A stretch of 64,000 bases of DNA. Origin: Ectocarpus siliculosus. Lineage: Eukaryota > Sar > Phaeophyceae > Ectocarpales > Ectocarpaceae. Positions within the stretch are counted from its first letter, which is position 1. Each line of letters starts with the position of its first letter. Where the stretch lies: assembly GCA_000310025.1 (NCBI GenBank), contig FN649751.1:1081132-1145131 (forward strand). The letters are read 5' to 3'. Under the pieces are notes generated by a model. It searched no databases. It saw nothing but the letters and a program-made list of their open reading frames with translations, and was not told where the DNA came from. The translations under genes and the position numbers were made by a program. Below are positions 2,603 to 29,168 of the stretch, in pieces.

Positions 2603-4785
2603 CGATCAAACTTGATGGCGAAGACCATGTTGGTGTAGATTAGACACAGGATGGTTGTGTATAGTGCCCCACTCGCAAGCACTTGCATGCCACGTCGTTG
2701 CCGACGACAGCCATGCAACCATGTGTTGAACTCTAGTGCTCGGGTCATCCTCACGGACGCATGATGAGCTCTGCCCAGACATCGTCCAACAGCATCATGC
2801 GTGTATAATTCGTGCGAACGTTCATCTTTGCCGTACCAACTGAGGTGTCCGAAAGATGAAAACGCAGATTTTCTTGCTTGGTCTATTTCATGGTGCGGGA
2901 GGGACCAACGTTGTGACAGTGCAAAAGAACAGTTCAAGAAACTCCCACACAAAGCGTAAGCCGGTAACTCGACGGCCGATGAAGATAGTGACACCAAAAC
3001 GATATCAACCAACTGAACTTTCAGCTTTCGTTACGCCCACACCACGGTGTCTCGCCGTCAAACGATGGCAACAATGACCATATCTGCTGCAGATTCAACA
3101 ACCAAACTGCAGTTTCACGCGAATCGCACCTGTAGCAACGCTGAACAATTTCTGCGGCCATGTGCATTTCCCTGGTGGGCTGCGACCACGCGGCGACCAG
3201 ATCGCCCTCGATCAATTCGTTCAGAATATCTTCATATTTTCGTTGAACTCCGACCAAATACGAACCGACCAGCGCCACAGCCGCACCAAGAACAGCCCCT
3301 GGTCAAGGTTCAGTACCGCGAGCGCGGTGTTGGCACTAGCGCATCAAACGCGACGGTAGCAAGGCATGCTAAAAGCATCGGCCTTAAGTGGCTTCGACAA
3401 CCGCACTTGAAAAGGAGCAAGAAGGCTTGCAATGGTTTCCCCGTCAGCAGGCGAAGTTGTTGACATCGAAAACGCAAGTGGCCTCGATGAGGTGGCATCA
3501 ACACGTGCACTCACCCGCTGCAATGGAAGCACTCGAGTTGTACATTAGAACTCCGCACAACGCCAGACCTGGGGCGACCACCGCCTGGAACGTCGTCGTC
3601 TGTACCATGATGCGAGCGCTGCGACTCACGACAGCAAAGGCTGACAACGCGCATAACACAGAACACGCCACGCTAAGAGATGTGACCATGTTGTGCAAGA
3701 ACGCGTACTCATCTCCCCCGGCTGCTTCAGCTTCCCGCGAAATTCTTAGCACCTGCCATTTGCACAGAACACGGTATTGGCATTTCAGTTCAGAACGCGA
3801 GGTGAAACAAGCTGAGCATGAGCAGATGTTATTTTGAGAAGTCTTTCCAACTCACCAGGGCACTTCGATTACATTTGTTTTGCGCAAGGTCGTCCACTGT
3901 GACATCGTGCCGATGTCCTTGTTGCTGTGCGGGCATGCAGCACGGAAGACACAGGCGTTGAGGAGTGAAGAAAAGCTACGTTGCGTGAAAAAGTGACACC
4001 AACATCACGGTTTGTATGTGGGTAAACACTGTTCATCTACCTTTAGTGTGGCACGTCTATCCTGCTCCGGAAATTCACCTCAGATACGAGCATCGCCAGC
4101 AACATGGGAAGCGGGAGGTAGACCAGAAGCAGCGTTTTCTGCATCGCCACAACGTCCCTGTAAGCTGCTGTTTGAACGACCGGCGTCGCGTTGGTCGCCG
4201 AGAAATAGAACTCGTTGGGTGAGCGTCTTACGTTCGCCACGAACCTGAAGGTATTAGACAAGCCAAAGTCGGCTTCAAATATCACTGGTGGACATTGAAC
4301 GTGAAAACCTATTTCTATTATTGGGTTGTATTCAATGATACATTCTTTCTCAAACGCATGTTGCTTCTGAAACGTCGAGCTGCATTTAACGGCGAGCTGC
4401 TCGGTGTACCTTTTTTCGGGATGCCAAACCCCATGAATTCCACAACAGCAGAGAGGTTGAAAACGTACTGACTGCTCACAGAGTCGGGACCACGTACATG
4501 GGTATACATATAATGCGGTGTGACCGCCAATAGCGGGGTGATAGTTCGATAGGACCCGAATGAGTTGTGATGTGTGCATTGGCTGTACACCTTGGTTCTC
4601 AACACATGAGTCCCACCCTGTCCCATGTCCACAAGAACCCTACCGTTACTGTGATCGGCCAAGAAAATGTTCTTGGAGAAAGCGTCGCATTCCGCCTTAC
4701 CTGGTGGGTGCTGTCTTGCGCGGAGGGCTGTCTCGTGGGGCGCTGAAGCCACCGCGATGCATCTGCTCCCGCGCGCTTGAGCGTG
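2603..4785 (-). other. C-terminal membrane exons (tentative)
   Basis: Coding-like hydrophobic blocks with splice borders continue downstream. They are 4785-4701; about 4560-4430 (YVFNLSAVVEFMGFGIPKK); a block ending at 4079 (TLLLVYLPLPMLLAMLVSE); a block ending at 3515 (VTSLSVACSVLCALSAFAVV, then a second helix); 3298-3130 (AVLGAAVALVGSYLVGVQRK); and 2732-2603 (LASGALYTTILCLIYTNMVF). They would add at least five helices. Several 5' borders are not fixed, and the donor after 2603 means that coding continues further left. Confidence 0.48.
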
Positions 4786-7700
4786 CTGTCAACAAGAATA
4801 AAAAATAGTGGGCCCAAGCAATTGTTGATCAGGGGAGCATGCTCGGCACGATCCATGAAAGAAATGTTTCTATTAAATCACGCGAACATGTTGGTTCATG
4901 TCCCACACACGGACCTTGCCGAAGCTAGCAAGACAAGTAGTACTTCAGGTCAAAGGCATGGCCATGCATGGGTGCGATGCAGGCTGTACCGACACTTGCT
5001 GGGACGTATCGACGGAGACCGTTCACCGTCTTGGAGAGCTGTCCGAAAATCGTCCACGCGCTCCTCCTGTTTTCGTTGGAGCTCATCGTAGAGGTCATGG
5101 TTGGGGCCCTCTGGTTCCTCCTGTCGGACTGGAACCCTCTTTAGCGTTTGTGATGCGGGTGGGGTGTTGCCAGCCCGTAGCAGAGCTGGGAAAATCACGC
5201 CGGTCGGGAGCATCAACAGTGCGCTAATGACCGTCATTTCCACCTGCGCGGAAAATGGAGCGCAATAATCTGGCGTTGCACGTTCCTGTGACAGAGCTTG
5301 TATCCATCTACAGGGGCAACGCTTGCGTGTCCAAGTATTGGGCGTTGCATAACACCCTGTCGTCGTAGGGCAGCGATGTGAACAGCAGCATCTCACCTTT
5401 TTCCTCACGCCAAACTGACTTTTGCCATAGAAAATAGCCTGCAGCAGAATGGCGCTCATCCAGTCAGCCAGTAGAAGGACAAGGTGCTGAGACCTGCCAA
5501 ATATGTCGGGGTGTTGGTACGGGATGAATCATCCGTACCTACATACCATGTGAAGATTTGTTGGAAGGTCAAGGTTCTCGAAAGCCTATTCAGTACTGAG
5601 GGGCCCCCGACGATAGGAGATTGGACACCACGTCTTCTGGGGCACATCGGATTCGCACGGAATGGGCCACGACAAAGACATGTTCAGTAGCCTACCTTGT
5701 GAGTAGCGTCTTGCTGAAATGGGCCGTTGGAGATTCGCTGAGATGCCGCCAAGAGTGGTTGAACAGGACACTCTCAGCCGCTACCTGGATGATGCGTAGC
5801 CGTCACGGTGTCCAAAAGTGTTTTAGTACTGATAGTTTTCCTATCAATATTCCTGTCATCCTCGTATACCACTTGAGGCAATTCAGGACCATTAAAGCGC
5901 TGTTTGGCATCAGGGGCTCACATCATCTTAATATACCTCCGATAGAGGCATTTGCTCTGCCTAACAGAAGCAACAAGTGCTGTTCTACATAGTTTGCCCG
6001 CTGCTTGAACTTGCATGTTGCTGCTCTTTCTGCCACCTGCAATACCCTGAGGTCGAACTACAGGAAGTCAACCTGGCCTTCAGAATAAATGGCCTCGAGG
6101 ACGCACCTTGCTCATGTTCTTCTCGTTCTTGAAGACCACGGGCATATGGTGGAAGACGTTGCCGTCTCTCTCACGGGCCCGGTCTTCCATCAACGCTTGA
6201 CGGGCGGCCTGTGCCCTATCACGTACCTGGCAAGAGTTCACAACGTGGGAAGGGTAGGTTTTTGTGAATCAATTGTGAAAGACATGGGCGCCCTTTCACA
6301 GGTTGTGCCAGCGCGGGCAGCTTTACTGTGTTACGCAAACCAAACTTCCTGTCTGCTTTCCAACTGAAAAAGTGCGCCGGAATATCATTCACATCTTATC
6401 GGACTGCTGATATACACCCCAGAGACGCCCTCGAGTGAAATAAGCACGTACTATGCCCGGTGCAACCGTCCACAAGCTTGGTACTCTATATCATGAACAG
6501 TTACCTGTTGGAGGCTAGACCACCAATTATGCTCCGTGACGAACAATATATGGCAGCAAAGGCAAGATCTCTCCGTGTGCTAAAGACAGCATCAGTCTAG
6601 TCAATGTGCCGTGTGCCAAAGCTGTTTGAGTCAAACATGTACGTGCACCCGGTTTTTCATGGGGCGTGTTTCGCGACCGCTCCTGCCGCGTGCCAAGTAC
6701 GTAGTCCAAAGGGCTTCAATGCCGTCACGATGTCGGCCGGGCTTCGTGTCCTACAAGTGCGTGAAAGGTGAAAGCGAAGAACACAGCGAGGTACATAGCC
6801 TAGACAAATGAGTCAAACTGGTGCGAGTTAAGCAAGGAGAAGAACAGCGCAACAAACCATAGTCCATGGTCGCAACACGCGTATCAATAGCTTCTCATTC
6901 GCGCGGACCTGCGATTTAGACGAGAGGGAGGATCGGAGAGGCGGCAATGAGGTGCCCGACAACCAAGTGGTGCACCCTGTGACCCTCTAACCTTGCGGGA
7001 GAACCATGCGGCAGGAATGAGAAGTGCAGCTACGACGCAGCTCAAGAAGAGGAGACCTGCCCAGCTTTCGGCACCGTACTGCCAGGACACACACACGTGA
7101 GAATATTGCGGTGGCTCGGTTAGGCTTGTAGTGTGCAATGAACAACGTGATATTTCCTCGTCACTGTCCACTATACCATGCATGCCGTCCACGAAAAGAA
7201 AACTCGCCCTTCGCAGACGGTGCGGAAGTGTGATTGCACACGCATGTACATCATCTGAAGGCCTGAAGGCTTCCTGTGCCACCAGTTTGGTAGAGAAAGG
7301 TGGGCAAATCATTGAGCATTGGCAACGAGCGGTATTTTGTTTTGCCTGGAATACAGGTTCCAGCGATGTCATTGGGAGAAAATAGCAGGTGCATCCTAAA
7401 ACTCTTCACGACGTTGAGCAAATGTTGTCCCATACCTGTGCCAGGACAGTGAAGTCAGTAACTAGATCGAGCGTATTCCATTGCGGGGTCGTCGAGTCCA
7501 CCCGGCTTGTGAACGCCGTGAGATGGTACGTTGCGCATTGGATAACGGCAGCGGTCGAGTCCAGATCCCGTTCCAGCGAACCGAGCACCACTCCATCCGT
7601 TTCCCAGCTACCACTCTCTTCCGACCAGTAGCCGCAGCCAAGGTGGCCAACATCACCTTTCTCGATATCAGCTCCAAGATCGATGGCGTCCGGTTCCTAT

Positions 7701-10700
7701 GCACACGGCACAAGCAAGAACATATTTATCAGGTATGTTCTGGAATAGTTGGCCCTTTTACGATCATACTCCGCACGTCCGGCGGGCACTGAACCGGCCA
7801 GAGTCTTTCTCGACCATAGCCTATCCTAAGCTCGATTGCGTGTTTTGCGAGTGTACATGTCACCAGAATATTTTGTCAATCTCTGTGTTTCTGTTCCTGT
7901 TGCGTGACGGGGCATCTCACCGGAATCGCCATGGACAAGTCGATGGGCCAAGAAAACTGTTTCTCTGGAACTCCCGCCGAATCCCAAGCATCAACGACGG
8001 TCACACCGTCCATATCTGCAGCAACATCGGAAGTGCCCAGAGACACGCATTTTGCTTCAGGTAAAGGGACATGGGTATGTCAAGATTGGTCTGTGTAGCA
8101 GTGCCCGATTATTTGGTTCACCACAAAGTCTACCAGACGGTTCGTCCACACAGACCTCTCTGTCTGTATGCCACCCGTTTCAAGCTCACGATATCTGTTG
8201 AAACAAGATACTTCTATCCGGACCATACACACAGTCGTGTGAGAAATTGGCGAGCGTGCTGCCACCGAGAGTGTTGCTCACCTGATAGGGAGGTTTAAGC
8301 GCAGGAGTTGCCCTGGGCTCTACTCGCAGCATTCTTACACCGTCATACCCTAGGGACTCCAATCGCGTGCATTAAAACGAGAAGCTAGAGATGCAACTAT
8401 CATCTGACAACATTGTTCTGGTGGTACGTCTTATCGAAGACACCGTATCCTACAAAACATGTGTCTTTTCGAGTTCGACTCCGTTAGAGCCAAGGAACAA
8501 CGAGCTACGTACGGTGTTTAGACGCCACCGTGGAAGGTCAGCATTCGACGTGGGATCCATTTCAATTTGTTGTAAGTGCAGTTTCCGCCGATCGCTACAT
8601 TATCCTGACCTTACTCGGTGGCCTAACAAGTATTTGACGAGCGATTGCTTCCTGGTGTTTCCAAAATCCAATCCAAGCTGATCCGTTTCTGCAGGAAATG
8701 AGGTCGTCTTTCTAGCTTCAGGTTTACGTTACACCAGCACGTGAGAAGACCGGAAACCTTGTCACCTGAGCCTGTGGAGCTGAAACCTGCCACCGAAAAC
8801 GTCCGCGCGCCACCGAAGTCCTGATCGGAACCGATGGCGGCATCCCATGAACTGAAAGAGATGTGCGTTCCATTTGGTCCTACAGATATGGTTGTCGCTG
8901 ACATGTCCATCGAATGAACTTTGGCGGGCTGCAAAACGTCAAAGCGACGACAGGGGGATGGGGGGAGCACGTGGAAGAATGCGAAAAAGATATCGTGATC
9001 CAGTATCCGAGTGCGCTCGGCAGCAGAAAGGTAGGGCAGGGTCGTCTAGAGCCAGAATAAACCAATCGGAACATGCAGGCACGTCTTCAAAAAGGTACCG
9101 GCTGAACGCTCGGTTCTCGAGCGAAGAGATTCCTCTAGCCCACGCTCCGTATTGTTCGGTCGTTGTTTGTCTCGTCGTGGTGCTATGTCGTTTCCAAAAC
9201 GTGTTGGAAGATCCGCATCCCGTTCCCTTGTCTGCCTCGACCTGCGGGGACGCCGTTGGTATATCTACACCCAGAACCACGGAAATATCACGACCGATTC
9301 AAACGCACCTGCACGACCAAAGAACCCGCGCTCGTCTCCCCCAGCTCCTCTTCCGCTTCGGATCCGAAAGCCAGGGCGTTGCCAACGTCGGCAAGGAGGG
9401 CTAATTGGTCCCCATTCTCGGCGAAAGCTGCTCCCTCGTTGGAAGTGGTAGGAGAAGCGGACAGTCCATCGAAAAGCGCGGACGTCACCTGCGAATGGTG
9501 AACGAAGCGTTGCTGCTGGGTCGCACATGACGAGAACTAAGCTTAAACCCGAAACACGCATGCGCTGTCTGTTCCACCGTAACTAACCCAGCGTTTCACG
9601 CACTCACCAACACCAACGATACGGCGGCGGCATCGTCAAGAACTGCTCCGTGGTTGGCCACTCTATCCACCATGTCTGCAGCGGCGCTACTTGCTTCAGA
9701 CAAGGTTGATTCCGCGGATGATCCGATTTCCTGTGCCGGGTGGTCAAAAGGTAGAATGTCCGTTGACAGCATACGCTCGATTTCTTGCACACCAAGAATC
9801 GTGGTTTGATTCTGTTCGAAGTTGTCGCGTTTGACGCGACAATGCCACGATTAGCCACATTCACGTGAAGTATATTACGGGTCCAGTGTCGAAAACCTTG
9901 TGACATTGACAATTCCACCAGTAGAACGTGCTTATTTCCGTTGTCTGGGCTTTGGTGTGACGGGTGTCAACACAGAACATGATGTAGCCATAACAATTGG
10001 CTTGATTGGGCCTATTTCACGAGTACATAGATTGTAGCCTTTGAAACTGTACTCACCAAAATGTTCACCAGAATGCTCCCCTCTCCTAGCCCATAACGCA
10101 CACATACCAGAGGCAGGCAAACGTCTGGTACCCCCCGAGTCATACGGCGTTCACCACGTGGTTCTTTTCGGTGGTGCACAAGCGCTCCCCACTATCCCCT
10201 TAATAATAAACGCAGCATGACAACACTTCAACGTACAGCTGAAAGAAGCAGGGCTTCCGCAAGAGCTTGAGACCCTGATGCGATACTGCTCGATGTTCCT
10301 TCTAGCGAGAAATAAGCCTTGACGATAAGACCCACGATATCCGCCTGGAGTAGTTGGTGGTGAGTGCCAGTTGGAATTTTTTTCTTGTTAGCAGAACGAT
10401 CGTTAACTCAGTTGAGAAGCGGGTGTGGGCAAGGAAGTTCCTTAGCGCACTGTTGTTCATTTCACAACGTTGCTCGTCTCATGTACGTGATGCGTCTAGC
10501 CGCTAGATCGTTGGCTACCTAAGGTACGACTGGAAGTGAGGAACAAAGAACGGCTAGACCTCGAGCACCGGGCAGCCTGATAAAATGGAAGACACATTCT
10601 TTCTATATTCGTGCGCATCGACATTTTTCAAGCGAAAAGGCGCAGCTGTGAGTACACGCAACAACGACGGAGGGGCTGCTGAACCCGTCTCGCATTATGA

Positions 10701-13700
10701 AGGGAAGCACCGCTGGAGTAAAGGCAGGAAATTCCTCCTGTGTGAACATCGCTGGTGCGTCAAAAATACTAAAAGGTGTAGGTTGGCGCCCAGAACTGGT
10801 GAAATGACGAAACGATTTGAACCAAAAGGTTTTTTGAAACAGCGCATGGATCCCACCTTGCAGCCTCGCGCGAGTGGAGGTGAACACTTCAGAAAACTCA
10901 TCTTTCACTCTCACCCCAAGTTGCCGAAGACAGAAGGAGGACTGTCGGAAAGCCCTACCGTGGTGATGTGTTCTCACTACTGATACTCTGTGATCCCCAC
11001 CTGAAGGGAACTCGTGCTTTCGACACCGTCCGACGTTGTGAGAGGCACGTGTTGGAGTAGAGCCGTCGCGACACGCGCGTCTCGCAGAGTGTCCTCGGGA
11101 TAGGGCAAAGATCCATTCTGACACGACGGCTCGCCTGGATAACACGTCAGGTTGTATGCCAACGGCAGCAGAGACGCCTGCGTGCAGGCATCACCGGTGG
11201 ATATTGCCATATTTGGAGTGTGGGACAACCGGTGGAGTGTGTCGTGATGTACATACGAAGTGATGTTCCTTGAAAGTCTATTTTACTCGCAGCAAGTATT
11301 CCGCCAGCGGTTGTTTGACGTTAGACCCTCAACCGTTGCACACGGGTATGGTGGGTCCTCCTGGAAGTGTGCCAGATCCAGTACTTTTCCAACTATCTCG
11401 CCAGTTATCTCGCCAGATATCTAGTTTCCCGGGGTATCCATATTTCCCCCATTTCTGACCCTAAGACCCAGGATACCTGGCGAAATGGATACACCAGACT
11501 ACCACGGGTGTATTCATGTTGAGCCCGCGGTTAACTCCTCTCAACGCCCAGTTTCAAGGGTTTTATCCGCGAAAAGTTGGTGTCCGTCGGCCGCTCACCT
11601 CCTCTGGTGCAACGGATGTTACTACCATCGGTGCTCCATCTTCTCCGAGGTTTGTTGCTGCCGTGGATCCTAGCGTATCCGACGCTGACACCACAATTGT
11701 AAGGTTGAACTCATTACGTGATAGACCAGCCGGAACGTTGGTGGTGAGGGTAGTTGAAACCGACGGAGAGGAAGACAGCCGGTTCACGAGCGCCGATTCG
11801 CTGCTGACGCAAAGACGAAGGAAAGACATGCCAAGAAGGCAACGGCCATCAGCTGGACGGGAATAAGCAAGTGGTTGCTGTTGATGTGTCTGGGTTCACT
11901 CTACGATACTGCGCCTTGCAAGATACACGGACCCAGGTTCAATGACGCACGGGCCTCGAGAGCCAGCGCAGCTGCATCCTACCCAGTTAAGCGCGTTGCA
12001 GACTTGTAATCCCACCTACGTAATATTATTTCACCGGGGTTGTCGCGGGCACCCTACACTGCTAAACGTGCACTACGGCGGGCTCTCGTAGTGCGAGAGA
12101 GGAGGTGGAAGCCGCAACAACGGGAAGGATCCCCCCATTGTGATTTCATTCGGCCCGGCTTCACAATTCCACGATACCTTGCGATGGCGATCACTTCGTG
12201 GTACCCTTGGATGTATCCAAAGGAGTACGTGAGCGGAAGGTCGTCAATATCATCCGTCCACCCCAGGGTCTGGAGTACCACCGGATTCACACCAGCGGTT
12301 GCAGATAGTCGATCCGACTTCAAGTGCCCCCCAGAGGGCGGGGCGTTTGTCTCGAACGAAAACTCTGTCATGACGAAGGGGGAAACAATGGCAATTACGA
12401 CGTAGGGATACGAATCGAGATGAGTCTTATGTAGAAGCACGTGCGGCTAAGATAGCAACGACAGTCAGTGGTTCGGGTCGCAAGAGACAAACAAAATGTC
12501 TTCTTTCGAACCACAATTCTCCGCAAGCAGATTTGATGGACATGCAACATGACTCGCCCGTTTTGGCCGACATCCCTTGGAGAGGGTGCGGTGGAACAGA
12601 CGGAAACCTGGGCAGATCGGATGAACCCATGCACGCTGCTTGGTGATACATGTCAGCGGCCTACCTGCGTAGCCGACGAGCCCGGATGCATCCGTCGCAG
12701 AGAGAGAGAAGCTGTAAACCTGCCCGGCGCCGAGGGCACCTTTTCGGGTGACGAGAGTCCGAGCGTTTACAGGTGTGCTGAATGCCTTGGTCCACCCGTT
12801 TCTGAGATCGAGGTTGCCATTCTCCTGGTGAAACGTGCAACGGCGGGGTATGTGTAGGGAGCCTGTCGGTGTCGAATGCGGGTGGTGGCTGTACCCAGGT
12901 AACGGCGAAGAAGAATAACGTAAACGTACCTGAGTTCCGGAGCGTAGTGCGCGTTGCACTGCTTACCTGTCGCCACGTTAGCCCGAACGAGGACGACGTC
13001 GAGGAATCGCATGGCCCCTCCGGAGAAGACGATGCACAGGCGTAGAGGACTATCTTTTCCGAAGGGTTGTACTTGCGTAGGATGGTCTACGAAAAGACAG
13101 AGCAAACACAACAGAGCGCGTTAGCTCACCCCATCCAACGGTGCATTACTGTAGACAAGCCAACCTCGAACGCCAGCAAAACGTTCACTGTGTGCTTCTT
13201 GTGAAGTCCAGAGAGGGGGGGCAGAGCATGCTGTAATCGGCTGTAGTCCCTTCGTACCAACGCTTGAACTTGTTCCGTATTCAGACGAGCACCGTGCAAT
13301 TACAGCTACATGTGCCGGCTCTTGTGTCCAATTTGATGGGTTTGTACCCTTCACTATGAATAGTACAAACTCGTCAAAAGCTTTCAGGTTCACGAAAAGC
13401 GCGGAGTATCTCTTGGCAGTTGCCCAGAGAGCTTTTCAGTTTGATGTACGTTCGGTCCTGCATCTACGTACGTAGTTCCAGGGACTCACACTTTTTGGCA
13501 ATATCTTGGATGCAAACACCCTTCGAATCTCTGCAAACTGTCGCATCTCACAACGACCAACATCCTCACAAGGGATTACGAGAATCACCGTACGCGTCAA
13601 GCCCCTGGTTTCTGGTATACTGGCACAAGAGCTTCTTGAAACGAACCTTGGGAGATATGGACACGTTCGGTATACTCTCTGCGAAAGTAGAGATTGTACA

Positions 13701-19700: not shown

Positions 19701-22700
19701 AGTCGGTGCCAGAGTTGGTGCCGGAGTCGGCGCGGGAATCGGCGGTGGAGTGGGTGCCAGATTTGGCGCAGGAGTCGGCGCGGGAGTCGGTGGTGGAGTC
19801 GGTGCCAGAGTCGGCGCAGGAGTCGGTGCAGGAGTCGGTGGTGGAGCCGGTGCCAGAGTCGGCACGGGAGTCGGTGCCAGAGTCGGCGCGGGAGTCGGCG
19901 CTGTGGTCGGTGCTGTGGTCGGTGCTGGTGTCGGTGCTGAGGGGTCGGCGCACGCAATCGGTGCAGGCGTTGGTACTGGGGCCGGCACTAAAGTCGGCGT
20001 GGGAGTCGGCGCGGGAGTCGGTGGATGGTCCAACTTTCACTAGGTTGGGGCATTTCGGTACTCACGGTGTACGTAGCATGTCGATGAAGGGTCACGACAG
20101 TTGTAGGTTGATGACAGGCCGCAGATGTAGGCCGCATCAACGCAATCGCATTCGCAGCCTGATGATCAGGGTGGTTGTTTGGTGACGGACATGCAGGAAA
20201 GTTAGGACGCAATAGACGACAACGTCGAATAGGAAACGCTCAAAGCTATAGGAGTGACCAGCGGTCAATGAGCAGTGAGCGAGGGTACATTCAACTCAAC
20301 GAGCACACACGGCTTGGTTCATACTCACAGTCTCCGCCATCCCATTTGCATTCCTCGTTGTTGTTATCGGCTGTTTGACCTGGTGAGCTGTAACCTGTTG
20401 AGGCGGAGCGCCGGCAGAGCAAGAGAGCGTGACGCGTCATCGGGAGTACGGCTTTGCAAGATGCAATCCAGACAGGGCGCTCGACGCGAGCCTCTCTACT
20501 GCCTATAGGTAGAGGCTGTACGTGTTGACTATTAAAGCCTGTTCAACATGAGCGCCGCCCTTCCAGACTCACCGTCAATGTCATCACAAATGCCATCGCC
20601 TATCCAGTCTTCGTCCCCACCACATGCTGCATGGAGGGGAATCATGGGATGTGGGGAGGATGACATTGGGGCGTTAGAAACCGACCTACGGACATGTGGC
20701 GTTAACCCAAAGACCCGTTCACCGAAAACCCTCTTTGAAGCGAGGACAATTCGATTCTGCGTTCGCTTTGTGTCGCTCGGCAAGCCTGCCATATCCATTG
20801 TGTACTGAGGAGGGTGGGTACGGGAGCACTCAACAATACCGACTTAGCGGAATCTCCACGGAAGAACATTAAAGCCTCCATGGGAAGCTGGTGCAGTGAA
20901 GAGCACCTACAATAGGGTCAAGATAAACGTGTGCGTGTTCTTCTCCCTCTCTTGTTCCCCAGCAGCTTCTCTGTACTGGTTTCATCACATAGGTATCTCT
21001 ATAAGGGAAATATAGCGACAGAAGCTGATTCTAAACGCACACCTTGTGTGGGAGCGGGGGTGGGAGCGGGAGTGGGTCCACACACAATGTCCATAACCAC
21101 GAGGCCGCCAGTGTCTTCGCTTGCTGCCATAGAGATGAAGAGCCTTTCCGTGGTGCTGGAAACGACAAACCCAGCGATGACCCCAGACACAGTGTTCGTT
21201 TCGCTGTTGAGATGAACCGCGACCCCACCAGATAATTCCCCAGTGGAACTGTCTCGCTGGAACACTACAACCTGCGGCGTATGGGGAGGATTATTGTACA
21301 ACGCTCATGAGCACTATGGACGTACAGATGTTCCACGTCTCGGTCAACTTTTGAGACTAGACGAGCAAAAAACGTTTTCGTCGGGCAGGATCGCACTTCC
21401 TGTCAAGGGGCACCGCTGACACAGTGCAAAAGGGTGCCACAAGAAAAAAAAACAGCGGACGGGTGTCTCTGATAGTACAACCAGTCCGCGGATCGTAAGA
21501 GTATTCTTCGGTGCCCCGATAACCACTAAAGTTTCAATGCTGAGCACAGTACATACCAACTTCGATACACCCCGAGAGGCCACAATAATTTTTCCAGCTA
21601 GTGTGGTGCCTCCAGAGAAAGAGCGTGCAACAGTCATTGAGGATGCTATCACCACGCACTCCTCCATGGTCCGCCATAGATCTCGTTTCGGGCAGATGCA
21701 TTTTTCCACCCCGTAGTGGCTCGCTGATGTTTCAAGGATGTGCATACCTCGTCAGATTCATGTCGACCGATCAAGACCGTAAGCTCGAGCGCCTGCGCTA
21801 CGAACACCTCTCCGGAAGTGCTTCCGCTTATGCTTGAGTCAGCGATGAAGGTGGTAGTCGACGTCACGACGCCGTTCGCGGCATCTAACCGTAGGTGAAT
21901 GACCACAGATGCGGCACAACCAAGGACATAGACCTGTTGGGGCGGGGGGGGTTCCGTTCTACATTGGCGGTGGACACGTCCATGATATCGCATTTTCTGC
22001 CAACTCGGCAGTAAACTCGTAAATGAAGTACGGATTGAACTTGGTCGAATAGTCCCCAAAGAAGCAAGAGAAGCCGAACGGGCATCTCTCCGCGCCTCTA
22101 GCTTGTCACCCGTGCATGTTTCATGGCCAGAGCCAAACGTAGGATCCGACACACCCACGATAAGTTCATTGCACAGCCCAGGGTTCTCTGGTGGCCCGTG
22201 ATACAGGTCGAGGTAGTCTGTCGTCTGGGCTGTTGCCGAAGGATTGGTGCTTGCATTTTAGGTATTCACAGTCTCGACCTATGTACTTGGATCTCACCGA
22301 GAGTCCATCCGGTGACACCATGATGTCGCAAAGCTCCCCGTCAGGTGCCGCTGAAGACCAAGTCGGCTCCTCGGTGCCATCGCTATTGACCGCCAATACA
22401 ACTTCGTCGGTTGTGGAAACGTAGAGGGTCGAACCGTCGGGGCTGAAAGCAACGGCTTGGACGTCGTGATATGATGAGTCCTTCCCTAAAGTGGGAAACG
22501 TTGAGGTTGTCCTTGGCGCAAACAGTCATGATGGCAGCAAGCAACACAATAAGCAAAACCAGTTAGTTTCATTTGAAGAAGCCAAGAAGACGCAAGGTGT
22601 GCACAATGCAAGCCGAAATCAAACCATTAGACTAGTCATTGAATAGTCTAATGGTTTGATTTCGGTTTACGAAAAAGTTAGTCGTGGGGTTTGTGAACTC

Positions 22701-25700
22701 CGGCACTTTCACTTCCGAGGAGGGCGACTCCCCTTGCCGGCGCACCTATCAGTCCAATCATTATTTAGTTCGCTTCATTTCATTCGTCTACTCATATCCT
22801 GTAGAACGTTCTACTTCGTAGTATCGCAGACGAGTCCTTCCGATATATCTGGCCGGTCCAGGGTCTCTGGAAAATAAACGCTTCAAAGTGTCCAGCCTAG
22901 GTGTCGAACCCACGACTGATCATCATCGTCTAAGGAAGACCCGCAATTTCCTTTGAAACACACACGGGCTCGTGGATGGATGGCAAAAGCCATGATGGCC
23001 GCGACGTTGGCTCTATTCAGAATTCCATGTGGACTAACACGTGCAGGGATTTGGTCGGGTCTCAAACCGCAGCGCCAAAGCCCACCAAGAACTGAAGACA
23101 CCGTGCGCGGAATGCAAAGAAAGTGGGGTGAAGTCTGCACGGGAGCGCTTGATGCATCGCTCAATTCACGCCATTCTCTACTAAGGATCTTACCCAAAGT
23201 TGCCGGCGTTATCAACAGTGAGTCGTCGCACGCCACCACCTTCCCCTGCAAGGGCTGCTCAAGTCATCGAGGCCAGCAAGTAACACACCGAAATGGAATC
23301 GGGAATCAATAGTGAGCACCAGCGATCCTATAATGAGGTATTGTTTATGTTTATAGGAAACACCAACGTGATTATCAAGTGACGATATATTATCGAATGC
23401 GCTCATTCGAGTACTCTGCTCCTCGTAGAAAAAACGTCCGAATGAGTGCAGGTTAACTACTGTATGAGGACTGGCCAAGGTCTCAGCGTGAGTTAAACTG
23501 CTACTGCTCTTCGTACGTCAAAAGGGCTGCTTCACTTGTTGTATCGATTTCCGAGTGAGAACCCACGTGTTTGTCACAACGCCATCTTAACGGCACATCA
23601 AGTGGTTACACAGCGACCTCACGGGTGGCCGTACACAATTCATCTCTCGCTTCCGTCTTACCGATGATCGAAACCTCTTCGATTACGCTGATGGACAACG
23701 CGTCCGTGCCTCCGCAAATTTGCGACGCATCCCCATCGCACGGGTCATCGCAAGCTGTAGATTCACCGAATACATCGTAGTCGTCATCTCCGCACCAACA
23801 CTTGTTTAGTAGTAGGCAGTGGTTGGCCGGCACCGAGTAGTCACGGACATGCGAAGAATTGCACGCGTCGTGGAAGGGGTGGCGAATCTCAAATACCTGA
23901 AGGTCTACATGACCGCGGAAGCTTGGCTTCGGAGGAACAGGGAGATGCGCAGGGTCAATAGTTTGACACGTGCCCGCCTACTACACTTGCGTTCGGCGAG
24001 GTACTGGTGCTCGACTAGGGAACAATGGCAGCAGGGTCTGATGAAATCGGCAAACACCAGATGGACGAAACAGCACTTGCATGTCTTCCTCTCCAAACGA
24101 GCTCGAACCAAGGCCACTAACATCACCCCGTGTAACATGGCGACGCGACATCGAATGCCCCGAAAACGTGCAACATACTTCTTGGAGAGGAATTCACGGA
24201 GTGTTGTGCAAGAGAAAATAGAGCATGGTTGGGGAAGCCCGTCCAACAGACCTGGAATCACGGAAGCAATGGTGGCAGCAGGTAGGTCCTCGGTGTGCTT
24301 CAGAAAACAGCACTGTGCTTGAGTTGAGACTTCTATGGGTACCTCTGTCAGTACATGTTGAGGTCCCCGGGGGATTTTCTCAACACCGTTGATCCAATGG
24401 TCCTTGGGAATCTAGAGTAGCTAAGGTATGGAGCTGGCGAGTGCCGAATCTGTCCAACCCCCTAATAGCGCTTCACTCAACTCATGAACGTCACCATTAG
24501 TGTAGAACAAGAAATAGGTTCGGATTTACGTGTTTGATTACATATCATCGGTTCAGGCTTGTGGTCGCAACTCTTCGAAGGGGAACGCTAGACCAAAACG
24601 CAGCGCTAGGCCTACGGACGTGAGCTATTGCCCCGTCTCAAATGAGCCTTTGTGGCGTTTGGTGCCGAACGTGCCTGGAAACGTGTGAAGTGCACCTAAC
24701 ATAAATCAACTCCAGGGAGATGCTTACGGCATAACAACCTTGTTGGTCTAGTTTCCAGGCTACTCCAAGGTGTCGAAGGAGAAAGTAGAGCAGCAATGTT
24801 ACCCCCTTAAAGAGTGTTTCTGTCACCAGTCTGCATGCCAGGTGTTTGGTCCCGTAAGATACCGGTCGTATTGCGAGCAATCGTGACTCTTCCTGTCGCA
24901 TGCACAAGCCAGCATTACCCCAGCAGCGTCTTTGAGTACCCTCCATAAGATCAGGTGTAACGCGGGGGCACTTAAACTCCCGACGTTTCGTCTTGCAACC
25001 ATGCAGTTTCAAGCCTTGCCACAAGCAATGCTATGTGTAAAATACAATGCCAACGACTAAAGTCTTTCGGGCGCTGCTATATGATAGTCATGCAGGGGGG
25101 CCTCGAACTCCGCCACTCGTCGGCAGGGTCGCCGCACCCATCGAAACAAAGCCCCCACATCAATGCACGTCGATTCGTTTCTGGAGTACGTTGCCCATCT
25201 ACGTGTACGTCTTTGTGGCAATAGCGACTGGCACATCCCATAACCCTTGTCCCTTCAACCCACCGAACATCGGGAGATCGAGATGATACGGATAGACTAT
25301 TGTCTAGTCTACTTTCTGAGGCAACGTTTCTCACCCAGAAAAAAGAAAACCGCTTTGCCCAAACGTACTACTCGTTCCATGGCTCACCTCGCGCGCAAAC
25401 TGAGTTCCGAAGTACTTGAAAGCGCTGCAATGCTCTTGGCACAGCTTCGTCGGCGTGGTAGGTGAGAGCACGTTTGTTCGAGGGGACAGGGGAGATTCGA
25501 CGACGTGTAAATGGGCTACAGTAACGTCTGAGGGAGAAAAAAAGCTTCCGAGATTCGAAGCTTCGTCCTTTGCGTCTGTCACCATGATCTACCTTAGCAG
25601 CCACCCAGTTCTATGTAGACAAAATTGTACGCTCTAATCTAGACACGTGTCGGAACAGCGAAGGTCCCTTTCAAGCCATGCTTCACTCACCTCTGTGGTC

Positions 25701-26770
25701 ATGGTGCCGACTAAGGAAATCTTGGTGGCGGAACTAAAGACACTATTTCCGTTGTCGTTGTCCGCGAAGCAGCCAAGGTAGGTAGCTGTGGTCAACGGAG
25801 AGCAAAACAGAAGTATAGTTGTGGTCAAGTGGCGCAGCATGGGGGAGAATCTGAACAGTGATGGGGTTCATGACCGGACGTCCCCCACCCGGACTCATGA
25901 CTAACATGCGTGTATGGCATCGAATCTCCTTCCGCAATGTTCCGGGCGTGGCTCGCCGGAGGAACAACGATCGTGATACCTTCTAGATTATCTCGCAATG
26001 TCGTTTGTCAATGGTGGCACCAGGTGCACGCGCACGTCGCTCGATAAGCTTGGTTTTGTGATGGGGATAGACAAGGGTGTTTGCGTTGTTTTCTGCGTGA
26101 TATTGTTCGGCGTGCGACGCCTTTGCCGTCGTGCCTCTACACCGTGCAACTGGGCATGTGCTACACGGCAGTCTCAGAATCCCACCTACGACTTGGGTGA
26201 CGCTATATGCAGAATCAAGCACCACATCGTCCTGATCGTTGTCTGTGGTGCTGGATGAGCCTTCCAGTTCCGGTTGGGTGATACTGGTAGAACCAAGCAG
26301 AACCAACGAATCGGTGGACGGGACGACTTCGGAGTACTCATAGGTGACAACGGTGTCCTCCTCTCCATTGACATGCGTGAACGCCTGGTGACGGTTTAAT
26401 CAGTGGGAGGTCGAACGGTCAAGGTGGTCGGCGTGTGGGGAATTCTGGGTCGGAGCCAAAGTACAACTAGCTGGTGTGCGGCGCTATTTCCACGCGTCGC
26501 CGCCTCTTCACCAGATTTCGAGGCAATAACACGTTGTGTTTCTTACAGCGCAAGCCCTGTCGGTGTAAGTACTTGCACACGACCTACGGCGATGCTCAAA
26601 CACGATCGTGGTAATCACAATTTTCCGTTTGTGGATTGCATCGCGTGTTCGCGTTCAGGAACATTTCTGATAGGTGGAACCAGTCAACCACCGATATTGT
26701 ATCTATTCAACGTGCTCCTGCAAAGGGGTACCACAACATTTATCGAGTTGCACCTTCAGCGATGCACACA

Positions 26771-26806
<36 letters not shown>

Positions 26807-27925
26807 CTTCATACTAAAAACCGTTCCGTTCTCTCTCTACCCAGTACCTTCATATGTCCGTACTGATCCAACACTTGACGCGGTTTGTTTGGATTCAAAG
26901 CGAAGAAAAATCCCAAAAGGCAACTAACGTGGATATCTGAGGATCCGGGCCGAAGCAATAGCCCCCTCAATTCGTCAACCCCCCCCGAGTCCAGATCTAT
27001 GAAGGAGTATAGCCCGGCGCTTGCGGGGTTCCAGTAGCCGGTGTTGCTCCAAGCCAGTGGTTGCGCTGAATCAGCATCTATTGTTATCACCTGGGGTCGC
27101 GTTGGAGTCGACCGAGCGTCGATAAGTTCACAGTTAGCCCTATGCCGATGGGACTAGCGGTGAGAAGTACAGAACATGCCCGGTAGTGTGGAGATCGATA
27201 TTAGTTCACTTCAAATGAATGTATCCGCATACTTCGTAAAAACGACCGAATTGTTGGCAGCCAACTTCATTCGAGAACGTATCGGTTGCCTTCAGGCATC
27301 GTGTGCGCGTGATGTAACCTTTTTTCAGTCGGCGGGTGGACATGCGACCAACATCGACCAGCCTTGGAACACAGTAAACCGCTTGCAGCTACTTCACGGA
27401 GAAGTTGTTGTGAAGAGATTATTGCGGGGGGGCTATATCTCTACCGTTCTGATGCCTCGGAGCCATGCCGAGACTTCAAATGCGAGAATCCGACCAAAGC
27501 GATGAGTCGAAGACAACGTGAGCTAGCCAGGAGAATGTTTCCCCTCCACCAGCACATGTTTCACATTCCCGACTAGCTGGCATGGCTGGGGAAGCGCCAG
27601 GAGCGAAAAGGTGGCTAAGGATAAAGTCTCCAAGGAGAAAATAGACCGAGCGAACGGAAATACTCACCCACTCTTCATTTTCACTGACGGCAATCTGATT
27701 TCCTAGCATGTACCCAGTGGTGGAGGACGTGAGCGTTGCGGAAGTTGAGGCGGAGCCAGTCCTTATCGGGACGTCCTGCACGATCTCCAAACTATCAGCC
27801 AGCGGTTAAGATACGACGGGCAGACGACGTAAGGGTGGGGTTAACACGCCCTGTTTCACCCCCTCAAAGAATGTATTTGCAAACAACCACAGAAAAAGGA
27901 CGGTCCAACCGTTGACGTTCGTCAT
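2603..27925 (-). CDS. Large WSC / beta-propeller / LNR / REJ / GPS polycystin-like membrane protein, multi-exon
   Basis: A single minus-strand gene is inferred because adjacent exons with GT-AG borders keep matching phases. Exons with good borders are: 27925-27860, 27775-27668, 27090-26929, 26384-26186, 25785-25691, 25444-25388, 23800-23662, 22485-22298, 21933-21748, 21661-21557, 21271-21043, 20626-20573, 20370-20329, 20158-20066, 19975-19427, 19131-18988, 17177-17028, 16434-16284, 15807-15725, 15499-15438, 15323-15165, about 15033-14610, 14189-13968, 13786-13589, 13353-13130, 13086-12967, 12824-12665, 12364-12178, 11803-11599, 11177-11001, 9783-9608, 9488-9309, 8879-8766, 8054-7921, 7696-7436, 7078-6992, 6750-6649, 6226-6107, 5784-5696, 5493-5409, 5243-5027, 4785-4701, then less certain exons to 2603. 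The order of domains is that of an adhesion or polycystin-1-type protein. Linkage is unproven at 17.2-19.0, 15.5-15.7, 9.8-11.0, 8.9-9.3 and 3.0-4.7 kb. The last donor (after 2603) implies at least one more 3' exon that I could not identify. It could be two adjacent genes, but the phase continuity argues for one. Confidence 0.72.
5027..6750 (-). other. Cytoplasmic loop and next membrane helices (polycystin-like)
   Basis: Exons 6750-6649 (DTKPGRHRDGIEALWTTYLA), 6226-6107 (VVFKNEKNMSK), 5784-5696 (VLFNHSWRHLSESPTAHFSK), 5493-5409 (SQHLVLLLADWMSAILLQAI then FYGKSQFG) and 5243-5027 (VISALLMLPTGVIFPALLRA) all join in phase. The H-S-W and F-Y-G patterns followed by a Pro-containing helix resemble the region after the first helix of polycystin-1-like proteins. 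A PLAT domain, normally placed between the first and second helices, is not visible: only about 70 residues separate them. Confidence 0.62.
6992..7078 (-). other. First transmembrane segment after the GPS
   Basis: An 87-base exon, phase 0 to 0, encodes YGAESWAG followed by the hydrophobic LLFLSCVVAALLIPAAW and the basic FSRK. It joins directly to the GPS exon. The size, position and basic cytoplasmic end match the first membrane helix of adhesion and polycystin-1-like receptors. Confidence 0.75.
7436..8054 (-). other. GPS (autoproteolysis) motif and preceding exon
   Basis: Exon 8054-7921 (VAADMDGVTVVDAWDS) joins in phase 0 to exon 7696-7436. The latter reads GCGYWSEESGSWETDGVVL, then IQCATYHLTAFTS, and ends FTVLAQ. 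The paired Trp and Cys followed by C-x-x-x-H-L-T-x-F is the GPS signature. H-L-T lies at 7525-7517, and in known proteins cleavage occurs between L and T. The next exon begins the first membrane segment, as expected. The site looks intact. Confidence 0.82.
8766..11177 (-). other. Exons between REJ and GPS (GAIN-like region)
   Basis: Exon 11177-11001 encodes ASLLPLAYNLTCYPGEPSC and a helical stretch. Exon 9783-9608 encodes EIERMLSTDILPFDHPAQEI and exon 9488-9309 VTSALFDGLSASPTTSNEGA, both of the helical type seen between REJ and GPS in polycystin-like proteins. Exon 8879-8766 (PNGTHISFSSWDAAIGSDQD) resembles the beta-strand part of a GAIN domain. Exons that must bridge 11001 to 9783 and 9309 to 8879 were not identified with confidence; a candidate is near 9245-9180 (EADKGTGCGSSNTFW). 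Confidence 0.5.
11599..15807 (-). other. REJ region (receptor-for-egg-jelly type), about 13 exons
   Basis: In order, the exons show IELNWTIEATDGNG, GTSCSLLPAYRH, FVVTLPSTSLDEGSTYTFGL, a 424-base exon with PPYTLGYAGSAYVFRVDLAD, then LYLNASESVDNDQ with FEFRWNCTDEAG, VHYRFGVSIWKGELD, YNPSEKIVLYACASSSPEG, LVTRKGALGAGQVYSFSLSA, TNAPPSGGHLKSD with GWTDDIDDLPLTYSFGY, and SALVNRLSSSPSV. These are the hallmarks of REJ domains of polycystin-1 and sea-urchin REJ proteins. Phases agree at nearly every join from 14189 down to 11001. Two cysteine-bearing REJ-like blocks are visible, so there may be two REJ domains or one long one. It is extracellular and probably mediates adhesion. Confidence 0.75.
16284..17177 (-). 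other. Exons leading into the REJ region
   Basis: Exon 17177-17028 (phase 0 to 0) contains VFVYFEGSESSREV and ends SASTLA before GTGAGG. A second coding block near 16860-16620 carries FHYTIRPSSFSNCTDGDG; its borders are not settled. Exon 16434-16284 begins after CCCATAG and carries LNPNEPVVEISAPEVVGCCS then LILEGVGSYPST, the classic opening of a REJ (receptor for egg jelly) domain. It ends in phase 1 and joins in frame to the next REJ exon. Confidence 0.55.
18335..18450. repeat. Dispersed repeat, copy 1 (related to 28635-28745)
   Basis: The blocks GGCATCG.CCGCGCTAACCG and GTCTCAGT.CGG.TGAA.AG occur here and again at about 28635-28745 in the same order and orientation, with a nearby CATGAT. 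This copy falls in the unresolved part of the large gene between 17.2 and 19.0 kb. The element type is unknown. Confidence 0.45.
18988..19131 (-). other. Cysteine-containing exon after the linker
   Basis: This exon starts in phase 1 (completing a Gly codon from the linker exon) and encodes about 48 residues with CNGGTCVGSKCTVGDLL and SAPSCAWTDETTATV. The donor is GGCGAAG before GTTAAC. It is clearly coding in character and fits the gene, but I do not recognise the domain. Between here and 17177 the path of the transcript is unclear; candidate coding lies near 18762-18905 and 17358-17530. Confidence 0.5.
19427..19975 (-). other. Pro/Thr-rich linker exon (PTPAP/PTLAP repeats)
   Basis: One 549-base exon encodes about 183 residues of PTPAPTLAPTPAP-type repeats, closing with a normal sequence (SSRPKLEEARLAAALIGMDL). 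It begins in phase 1 after an acceptor CCCCAG and ends at CTCAG before GTATTG. Such linkers are extended, often O-glycosylated stalks in algal wall or surface proteins. All three minus frames and the plus strand stay open here because of the repeat, so the reading frame is chosen by splice phase and by the non-repetitive end. The upstream intron is only 90 bases. Confidence 0.65.
20066..20626 (-). other. LNR (Lin-12/Notch-like) cysteine module, three small exons
   Basis: Exons of 54, 42 and 93 bases (20626-20573, 20370-20329, 20158-20066) all join in phase 1. They spell CGGDEDWIGDGICDDID, then NNNEECKWDGGDC and CECDCVDAAYICG, ending CRDPSSTC. The W-I-G-D-G-x-C-D and N-N-x-E-C-x-W-D-G-G-D-C signatures are those of the calcium-binding LNR repeat. 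The following cysteine-rich CVD segment is, from memory, seen after LNRs in stramenopile proteins. The domain sits between the propeller and the Pro/Thr linker. Confidence 0.8.
21043..22485 (-). other. Beta-propeller-like repeats (four exons)
   Basis: Exons 22485-22298, 21933-21748, 21661-21557 and 21271-21043 continue in phase from the WSC domain for about 236 residues. The pattern AVAFSPDGSTLYVSTTDEVV and the later VVVFQRDSSTGELSGGV are typical of lactonase-like or YVTN-type propeller blades, where a D-G turn follows a hydrophobic strand. The number of blades is fewer than a closed seven-bladed propeller would need, so the domain may be partial or I may have missed an exon. The last exon ends in PTPAPTPAPTQ, the start of a linker. 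It is probably extracellular. Confidence 0.6.
22613..22665. repeat. Perfect 22-bp inverted repeat (hairpin) within an intron
   Basis: The arm at 22613-22634 (CCGAAATCAAACCATTAGAC then TA) is exactly complementary to 22644-22665, with a 9-base loop. It lies in the intron between the last WSC exon and the first propeller exon. A close relative of one arm occurs at 37204-37228 inside the minisatellite, so it is a dispersed sequence, perhaps the tip of a small foldback element. Confidence 0.85.
23662..25785 (-). other. WSC domain encoded across three exons
   Basis: Exons 25785-25691, 25444-25388 and 23800-23662 join in phases 1, 0 and 0 and give one complete WSC domain of about 97 residues, around residues 179-275. 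Visible marks are the opening TYLGCFADN, the middle LCQEHCSAFKYFGTQF, then CWCGDDDYDVFG and the closing CDDPCDGDASQICGG. This is the usual cysteine spacing of a WSC domain, a putative carbohydrate-binding module found in yeast wall-stress sensors and in animal polycystin-1. The join across three exons with correct phase is strong support for the gene model and the strand. Confidence 0.88.
26186..27090 (-). other. Exons 3-4: unassigned extracellular region before the WSC domain
   Basis: Exon 27090-26929 (phase 0 to 0) and exon 26384-26186 (phase 0 to 1) encode about 120 residues rich in Asp, Ser and Thr (for example VITIDADSAQPLAW and EYSEVVPSTDSLVL). The donor after 26186 leaves one base that completes the Ala codon just before the WSC exon, which fixes the splice choice. 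I do not recognise a family; the composition fits an extracellular linker or a degenerate beta-sandwich. The intron between these exons holds a dispersed repeat with a TTG array. Confidence 0.5.
26773..26884. repeat. Dispersed repeat with a TTG array (copy 1)
   Basis: A run of TTG triplets (26773-26806) is followed by about 80 bases shared almost exactly with 45013-45103. Read on the minus strand it ends in a CAA array, as expected for the 3' end of a non-LTR element or SINE. It lies in the intron between exons 3 and 4 of the large gene. Confidence 0.7.
27668..27925 (-). other. First two exons: signal peptide of the large gene
   Basis: The ATG at 27925 opens a short hydrophobic leader (MTNVNGWTVLFLWLFANTFF), a plausible signal peptide for the secretory pathway. 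The proposed donor after 27860 and acceptor before 27775 leave an 84-base intron and keep phase 0. Exon 2 continues with a Ser/Thr-rich stretch and ends at a good donor (GAGTGG then GTGAGT) that joins in phase 0 to exon 3. An alternative in-frame ATG lies at 27946. The short intron and the choice of start are the weakest points. Confidence 0.5.
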
Positions 27926-28263
27926 AAGTCGGTCGCCGGTTCTCATCTGGCTGTTTCTGCGGTGCCTGCACCGGTAGCCTGGTTGTGAGGTACTTCTTGG
28001 TACGGACACAACTGAGCAGCCCTATTGCCCCATCTGCGTTCGGCACTATTGGTAGTTCAGTGGGACTTCCTCACGTCTTCGTGTGAGCTGTGCTCTAGGT
28101 GGGGTTCAGGAGAGGCAATTCCTTCCGAGCCACGAAAGGAAGGGGGTCAAATCGATATAGAAGGAACCTTCGCACTTTTTGTTCTGGATGTGACAGTATG
28201 TATATGCCAAGATCTCAAACTATGTAATCGCGGGAAGCTCTTACGATTTCGGTGTTTCCGATA

Positions 28264-28556
28264 ACCGTGGAAGCATTTCGTCGTCCTTCGTGGAAGTTGA
28301 GAATGCGCAAAACACCGAAATACTACATACCATCGATTTTCAAAACTATATCTCGCATAGAAGCTCGTTTGACGCCCATCGCTTCCATGGAAGATGTCAC
28401 ACTTTGGTGGAATCTGGAGTCACTTCCACAGAAGTTATGGAAGCGTTCGTCAATGCCACGGAAGCCTTCCACGAGCTTCCACCTGGGCTTCCGCCGTGGC
28501 TTCCATTGCTTGCGTGGAAGCTTCCATGAATGTCATGTAATGGAAACTTCCACGGT
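28264..28556. promoter_or_regulatory. Dense CTTCCA/TGGAAG cluster upstream of the large gene
   Basis: Within about 290 bases the motif GGAAG or its complement CTTCC, usually as CCACGGAAG, CGTGGAAG or CTTCCATGG, occurs more than a dozen times in both orientations. Several copies form short palindromes. It lies 340 to 630 bases 5' of the proposed start of the minus-strand gene. It could be a cluster of transcription-factor sites or simply a repeat; a regulatory role is inference from position. Confidence 0.4.
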
Positions 28557-28634
28557 GGTGTTCGCCGTACCTCTTTCTGGCCTGGGAACCAGGCCGTATC
28601 CCGCTTTGAGGCGGTCGCCCTAATGTGTTTGTGT

Positions 28635-28745
28635 TCCAAGCATCGGCCGCGCTAACCGGCTTTCCGATAAAAAAACGTCAGTCTCAGTGCGGCTGAAAAG
28701 CAAAATGCTACTAATGACCATGATCTGGAACCCCGTGAGGGGTTA
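28635..28745. repeat. Dispersed repeat, copy 2 (related to 18335-18450)
   Basis: It shares CATCGGCCGCGCTAACCG, then GTCAGTCTCAGT and the following AAAAGCAAAATG-like block, with the copy near 18.34 kb. No coding potential is evident. Confidence 0.45.
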
Positions 28746-28916
28746 TCATGGGGGAGGCCACAAGCTACCAAGCGTGTGTGTGTTTGTCCCATCATTCTAT
28801 CGGCAATCTACTAACCGTTCGTAGTGTAGACAGGTTCGACTTTTTAGCCGAGGTCACTCGGAGCAAGTAGCACAGGATTTTTCTTTGATGCTCACCTTTC
28901 CTCCTGCAGAACTTGC

Positions 28917-29168
28917 CTATGTTGCCGTTTTTAGAAATACAACAGCAGCATCGTATAATGGGCACAGATCTACGGAGCAGTCTGTAGATTGGAGGGAATC
29001 ACGTAGTTTCTGCTTGGTTTCCTCGGAGATTCGACAGTGGTCTGAAGAGTGACGGATGGATGTGGTGACGCGCTTGGTGTTTTCTCTCGTTTCCACGTCA
29101 CCCTCTACATGTAATTCAAGACTTTTCTTATAAGAAAAGCCCTGTTGAACTTTTTTTTTTTTTGGCAC
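28917..29168 (-). CDS. Short ORF of unknown nature, 83 aa
   Basis: A minus-strand frame begins in an A-rich run and encodes a Lys-rich start, then a non-repetitive segment with RISEETKQKLRDSLQSTD and a Cys-containing end. The composition is more protein-like than most open frames nearby, but there is no family match that I recognise and no clear start context. It could be a remnant of a mobile element or a terminal exon. It lies upstream of the large minus-strand gene. Confidence 0.15.
   Translation of the reverse strand: MPKKKKVQQGFSYKKSLELHVEGDVETRENTKRVTTSIRHSSDHCRISEETKQKLRDSLQSTDCSVDLCPLYDAAVVFLKTAT

Follow-up and report, generated by a model that had tools for sequence, protein, structure and literature searches.

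Introduction

One stretch of the genome of the brown alga Ectocarpus siliculosus raises a two-part question: do the domain motifs strung along one of its strands belong to a single receptor gene, and if so, what might such a receptor do? The stretch is a window of 64,000 nucleotides (assembly GCA_000310025.1, contig FN649751.1, here C26; the window is C26:1081132-1145131), and positions given without a contig refer to it. The original prediction saw a polycystin-like mosaic of WSC, propeller, LNR, Pro/Thr stalk, REJ, GPS and multi-pass membrane modules. We find that a single minus-strand gene, called copy A here, chains all of these modules, running from 27925 to 2121 in 50 exons and encoding 2463 amino acids. 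On balance, we favor a reading in which this one 50-exon gene specifies a large surface receptor, with a WSC-in-propeller head, an LNR-like module, a stalk, REJ, GPS and a multi-pass membrane part, that probably senses glycans in gamete recognition.

Splicing joins the modules in one gene model

The model of copy A was computed with a home-made splice-aware decoder, revised according to conservation among paralogues and then curated by hand. Searching the genome with halves of the draft protein revealed a head-to-tail neighbor on the same strand of C26 (copy B, ~1071.5-1047.5 kb). Further copies lie on contig C15, four of which (Ca, Cb, Cc and Cd) were taken up, so that six copies were compared with A and B included; paralogue counts given here are lower bounds (the best candidates were scored), and the Ca-Cd models are automatic and still hold micro-exon and read-through errors.

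All 49 introns of the curated model have GT-AG borders, and no internal stop codon interrupts it. As a control, we used a gene-finder with codon scores trained solely on the 3′ half of copy B. It scored 266.8 on the gene strand of A, whereas the plus strand gave 34.9 and shuffled sequences (n = 10) gave 5.5-20.7. It retrieved 77 of the 100 curated exon boundaries together with 6471 of 7392 coding bases. The predicted mosaic of phase-consistent exons in one minus-strand chain is thus borne out. Its 3′ end, which had been placed at 2603, moves downstream to the last exon at 2265-2121. Micro-exons proposed by automatic models (for example near 24.25, 8.65, 8.25 and 5.95 kb), as well as intron read-through, were unsupported and dropped by hand. 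Copy B has no conserved counterpart of the ATG that opens the first exon (27925-27860), and we therefore treat that exon as provisional.

Splicing also determines which domains can be recognized. Raw three-frame Pfam scans return weak single-exon matches to REJ and WSC and nothing else. In the spliced protein, REJ rises from 26 bits (best single frame; another frame matches at 23.8) to 161.6 bits, and WSC, at 17.7 bits raw, reaches 53.6 within the spliced head and 59.3 when scanned by itself, the latter match covering positions 1-82 of the 82-position profile. No NCBIfam match was found in the three pieces of the protein that were scanned.

The WSC domain is nested in a propeller

The propeller is detected as Pfam Lactonase, a family of seven-bladed propellers, at 29.7 bits (31.6 without the WSC domain; cut-off 21.7). 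Because the phmmer matches of the propeller to WD40 proteins come from short repetitive segments, they were set aside. WSC had been expected to precede the propeller; in the spliced protein, the propeller starts before WSC (27775-26186) and resumes after it (23254-21043). We treat these flanking parts as one unit, a view supported by Cb and Cd, in each of which the complete unit occurs two times with its parts in this order.

Comparison of the copies locates the insertion. In A and B, three WSC exons separate an exon that ends in DDVVL.SAYSVTQVV from one that starts with LAGEGGGVRRL. In Ca, Cb and Cd, a single phase-1 intron lies between the corresponding exons, the first of which ends in DGVI or DGVL and the second of which starts with.LGE.GGV.R; with A and B, this makes five copies that have a phase-1 intron at the site. 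In the DNA fetched for Cc, the first propeller unit was not found. The cassette thus sits at an intron that the paralogues have without WSC. The phase-1 introns that flank both, together with this match for WSC, suggest that the WSC and LNR exons are cassettes acquired by exon shuffling. All three of the other WSC loci compared (C244, C24 and C21) have a phase-0 donor after MTxE and an AG immediately before CWCG, so that their internal intron places are those of the copy A WSC.

A signal-like stretch that starts with an ATG at 25840 runs straight into WSC, as would be seen if the WSC exons were a separate small secreted gene lying inside an intron of the receptor. However, the tandem copy has this ATG in a different frame from WSC, the signal-like sequence is the pyrimidine-rich tail of an intron, and the phases on both sides suit splicing into the receptor. 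We regard a nested gene as very unlikely.

The neighboring copy matches a published male-gamete gene

Both quantitative PCR primers reported for the Ectocarpus gene Esi0130_0068 (PMC3879662) match copy B with no mismatches and delimit a product of 147 bp, as published; we therefore identify B as Esi0130_0068. Across the genome, the forward primer is matched exactly at one site and with a single mismatch at two more, and a primer for another gene, Esi0102_0070, is matched exactly once. These matches also assign the genome to Ectocarpus. The Esi0130_0068 primers have no match in copy A with up to four mismatches.

In PMC4700764, Esi0130_0068 is described as a male-gamete-specific protein of 1427 amino acids with REJ, GPS, six or seven membrane segments, an extracellular part of 976 amino acids and signs of positive selection. 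The same text reports a polycystin channel match inside its REJ, judges it to be without a lectin domain upstream of REJ, and mentions lectin-like receptors on male gametes. Five REJ-like genes are expressed solely in male gametes according to PMC3879662.

Arithmetic on the published lengths puts the published start approximately six residues before the IGAFLSS exon of our B model, which is the primer-bearing exon and the counterpart of the exon at 16434 in A. By the same estimate, our model extends approximately 97 residues beyond the published one at the C-terminus. The published model, shorter than A and said to be without an upstream lectin domain (PMC4700764), is thus likely truncated and would leave out the propeller, WSC and stalk, provided that these parts do not form a gene of their own. 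Like A, copy B has a propeller with nested WSC, a Pro/Thr stalk, REJ, a GPS-like exon and a membrane part. Unlike B, copy A carries an LNR module that was not found in B, and it is a separate copy with 3′-half synonymous divergence (Ks) of 1.2-1.4. Upstream, Esi0130_0068 and its tandem neighbor alike seem to continue into a propeller with WSC, which could plausibly serve as a glycan-binding head.

Our B model is less exact than that of A: one exon start (1055091) is without AG, and the first exon and a middle Pro/Thr exon (~1064064-1063853) were left out. Three of its introns, at C26 positions 1062483, 1056677 and 1050906, apparently have GC-AG instead of GT-AG borders. Between the two tandem receptor genes lies an N run of ~4 kb (C26:1077080-1081131), which ends exactly at the start of the window.

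Because the neighbor matches a male-gamete gene, gamete recognition appears to be the most likely setting of copy A. The gamete role suggested in the original prediction gains weight from the two primer sites in the neighboring gene. A different role, that of a wall-integrity or osmotic sensor of vegetative cells resembling yeast Wsc proteins and having no special gamete function, would fit the activity of yeast WSC 1-3 as wall stress sensors via RHO1 and the presence of WSC-domain proteins among brown algal wall proteins (PMC8307928). The reported male-gamete specificity of the tandem neighbor and the five REJ-like genes expressed solely in male gametes argue against this role, and we consider it possible but the less probable setting.

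One gene or two

The two halves of the tandem copies have diverged to very different extents. From ~29.9 kb to 20861, A and B align through exons and introns in blocks of 79-94% identity (82-94% inside the gene) with unmatched stretches between them, and nine introns compared are 90-96% identical over aligned bases. Below 20861, alignment is confined to exons, at ~70-83%. Correspondingly, Ks is 0.045, 0.069 and 0.125 in the 5′ blocks versus 1.16, 1.18 and 1.37 in the 3′ blocks, and the ratio of non-synonymous to synonymous divergence (Ka/Ks) is 0.17-0.33 in all six blocks, which are under purifying selection. The 5′ half is homogenized between A and B, pointing to recent gene conversion as the simplest account of the Ks step; such conversion could also have transferred the WSC head between the two copies. 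A comparison of Cc with Cd shows a similar but weaker step. These two copies form an inverted pair (C15:4884640-4896080 versus 4935795-4924444) with 88% identity over 11.5 kb and 69-86% towards the 3′ end.

A step of this size, with Ks ~9-30 fold apart between the halves, would also be seen if there were two genes, a secreted propeller-WSC protein upstream and a REJ-GPS-membrane protein downstream, with a break somewhere within 21.0-16.4 kb. A frame extended past the donor at 21043 runs into a stop at codon 15 (open reading frame [ORF] 20999-21304), and the published Esi0130_0068 model, with its 1427 residues, 976-residue extracellular part, no lectin domain and a start close to the IGAFLSS exon, is what a downstream gene might look like. 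The paralogues tell against such a division. In three of the four C15 copies (Cb, Cc and Cd), one uninterrupted predicted exon holds the last blade, the stalk and the pre-REJ segment (e.g., C15:4859121-4858773), and we therefore consider a gene break at ~21.0-19.4 kb unlikely in A and B; in Ca, the same region is split over two exons. The stalk of A and B begins inside the last blade exon, which in A is 21271-21043 and ends CGPTPAPTPAPTQ. In all six copies, propeller units lie upstream of the REJ exons on the same strand, with the intervening exons in the same order. A break between 19 and 17 kb, the example given in the original prediction, is countered only indirectly: the exons at 19131, 18676, 17840, 17177, 16758 and 16434 have ordered matches with compatible phases in B and in all four C15 copies. 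We judge the two-gene alternative unlikely and retain the single 50-exon gene.

The order of propeller, Pro/Thr stalk, REJ and GPS exons is the same in all copies. The membrane part was modeled to a conserved end in A, B, Cb and Cd; within the fetched stretches, matches in Ca end at the counterpart of the 5243-5027 exon and those in Cc at the exon of the first membrane segment (TM1). Further REJ loci occur on C9, C251 and C2, and a GPS match lies close to two of these (C9:356889 and C251:11800); among the best 57 of 257 propeller candidates, none falls at these loci.

No channel match in the membrane part

The GPS of copy A is degenerate, although its exon keeps the HLT motif, and a cut between L and T near 7520 is possible. 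GPS stands above the Pfam cut-off of 22.5 bits in three paralogues (Cb 30.9 and Cd 29.5 as short pieces, Cc 22.9 in a genome scan) and below it in B (20.8 as a short piece); the GPS named in the original prediction falls just short in A itself. The membrane region that follows has nine hydrophobic segments on a simple scale. It matches no Pfam family above cut-off, and searches against PDB, including a profile search, gave chance-level matches and no channel. A putative likeness to polycystin TM2 and TM4-5 drew no support from that profile search. At E values up to 1, Pfam PKD_channel and PLAT had no match in raw frames or in the spliced protein, nor did 7tm_2 in the spliced protein. Copy A therefore has a membrane part with no recognized ion-channel or PLAT domain.

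These results bear on whether the protein could be a genuine polycystin that by itself makes up a cation channel, as "polycystin-like" might imply. REJ, GPS and many membrane segments would suit such a protein, as would the channel match reported inside the Esi0130_0068 REJ (PMC4700764). Besides the missing PKD_channel and PLAT matches and the channel-free PDB profile search, none of the eight PKD_channel matches listed for the genome lies on a REJ-bearing contig (C26, C15, C9, C251 or C2), although weak exon-split matches might be missed by such a scan. The channel sense of the term is not supported here, and we hold a self-conducting polycystin to be highly improbable.

A proposed receptor model and the points that weigh against it

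How might the parts work together? Under our favored reading of a single receptor, the WSC/propeller head would bind a glycan on the surface or wall of a partner cell; WSC is regarded as a putative carbohydrate-binding domain (PMC12879055). The Pro/Thr stalk would hold this head away from the membrane, and a ligand or pull acting via REJ may alter the GPS-cleaved junction. The membrane part might then signal through partner proteins, which seems more likely than conduction by the protein itself because no pore family was found. Glycan binding, self-cleavage, signaling and gamete expression of copy A are inferred here.

Several observations weigh against this reading, at the level of either the gene or its function. 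On the gene model, the exon at 4785-4701 has no conservation support and is provisional, exons of the membrane part were chosen with guidance from conservation in copy B, and the joins in the 19.4-16.4 kb interval are supported by colinearity and phase only, with no spanning exon. The jump in Ks at ~20861 could also have come about if the 5′ and 3′ halves were separate genes, and Ka/Ks in the WSC block derives from only four synonymous and five non-synonymous changes. Two domains fall below their Pfam cut-offs: Notch/LNR, at 16.2 bits versus 21.2, and GPS, at 21.5 bits versus 22.5 as a 70-residue piece and not listed at E up to 1 in a scan of the 1729-residue C-terminal part. In a domain search of the spliced protein, REJ, WSC and the propeller therefore stand, whereas Notch and PKD_channel do not. 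The best propeller matches are to the later blades; our count of seven blade-like units, with WSC in the third, is our own reading of the spliced sequence and was not computed. Finally, WSC is abundant here, with 102 matches listed for the genome, so that its presence alone is no sign of a gamete role.

Among the copies compared, the LNR-like module is specific to A. Motif scans of the fetched DNA, with a narrow and a wider pattern alike, found it in one of the six copies. The spliced module and its tail have 48 listed matches in the genome, three in the copy A gene and 45 elsewhere, and on C17 one uninterrupted frame spans the counterpart of the spliced LNR junction. More speculatively, Ectocarpus may diversify its gamete-surface receptors by swapping cassettes (WSC and LNR into phase-1 introns) and by converting the 5′ half between tandem genes, so that a recognition head is exchanged and the signaling half stays private, WSC and REJ having been joined independently of animal polycystins. 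We offer this scenario tentatively and think it more doubtful than the receptor reading itself.

Relation to known receptors

The position of WSC in animal PKD1 differs from the nested one of copy A, so that the WSC-REJ pairing found here has an arrangement unlike the animal one. Yeast Wsc sensors, which are single-pass proteins with a Ser/Thr-rich stalk, resemble copy A in combining a WSC domain with a low-complexity stalk; unlike them, A has several hydrophobic segments, REJ and GPS. Adhesion G-protein-coupled receptors share a GPS-type site just before the first membrane segment. Copy A differs from them in having no Pfam 7tm family match, nine hydrophobic segments and REJ in place of their modules.

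Sea urchin SpREJ proteins and human polycystin-1 are like A in that REJ is followed by GPS and membrane segments, and PMC1934368 places WSC in SpREJ6, 7 and 10 and in human PKD1, and PLAT in just five of the ten SpREJ proteins. In contrast to these families, A has no PLAT, PKD_channel or C-type lectin match, and its WSC is nested in a propeller. Among brown algal proteins, ROCO receptors (PMC11378527) are likewise reported to feature shuffled exon cassettes, but are candidate immune proteins, and WSC-CAP proteins (PMC12879055) likewise join WSC to other domains, but are CAP proteins. Unlike in either group, the cassettes of copy A enter a REJ/GPS membrane receptor.

The REJ/GPS kind of receptor is known and has a close published relative. 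New are the nested WSC, the copy-specific LNR, the likely truncation of the published model and the divergence step between the halves; we found no description of WSC joined with REJ in brown algae in the open-access literature. The propeller-WSC head is a concrete part for expression and testing that bears on how algal gametes may recognize each other, and the sharp 5′/3′ step in divergence is traceable across strains with known mating barriers.

Features of the copy A gene and of the window

Table 1. Coordinates of copy A modules within the window, in the order of transcription
Feature	Positions	Strand	Details
First exon (provisional), ATG and signal-peptide-like stretch MTNVNGWTVLFLWLFANTFFEG	27860-27925	-	Curated model
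Propeller unit, N-terminal part	26186-27775	-	Exons 27775-27668, 27090-26929, 26384-26186; phase 1 end; aligns with C15 paralogues
WSC cassette	23662-25785	-	Exons 25785-25691, 25444-25388, 23800-23662; eight Cys; phase-1 introns both sides
Propeller unit, C-terminal part	21043-23254	-	Exons 23254-23194, 22511-22298, 21933-21748, 21271-21043
Tract similar to tandem copy C26:1064038-1073997	20861-29886	-	Exons and introns alike
LNR-like module with Cys-rich tail	20066-20626	-	Exons 20626-20573, 20394-20329, 20158-20066; each phase 1-1
Pro/Thr stalk exon, ending in pre-REJ segment SSRPKLEEARLAAALIGMDLAFGLG	19427-19987	-	Tandem 12/24/48-bp repeats; 5′ border uncertain
Pre-REJ ectodomain	16654-19131	-	Exons 19131-18988, 18676-18587, 17840-17767, 17177-17028, 16758-16654; matches in tandem and C15 copies
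REJ region exons	11001-16434	-	Pfam REJ match maps to 14805-11647; 161.6 bits, E 3.2e-47
REJ-to-GPS ectodomain (where a GAIN-like region would lie)	7921-10344	-	Exons 10344-10237, 9730-9608, 9488-9309, 8928-8766, 8015-7921; no Pfam match
GPS exon	7436-7696	-	C..YW......W...G......C.T.HLTAF
Multi-pass membrane region, exons 1-6	5027-7078	-	TM1 7078-6992, 6750-6649, 6226-6107, 5784-5696, 5493-5397, 5243-5027
Multi-pass membrane region, remaining exons	2121-4785	-	4785-4701 (provisional), 4244-4079, 3752-3515, 3298-3130, 2770-2603, 2265-2121 (TAG)

Elsewhere in the window, two long plus-strand ORFs (39145-39834 and 40105-41355) lie within strong GC and AT skew at 38-44 kb. With the start GSWNVC, they resemble a non-LTR (long terminal repeat) retroelement. 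An N run occupies 37897-38264, and tandem repeats are found at 33645-34434 (185 bp), 37237-37699 (73/147 bp) and 54538-55014 (159 bp; three copies, 99% matches).
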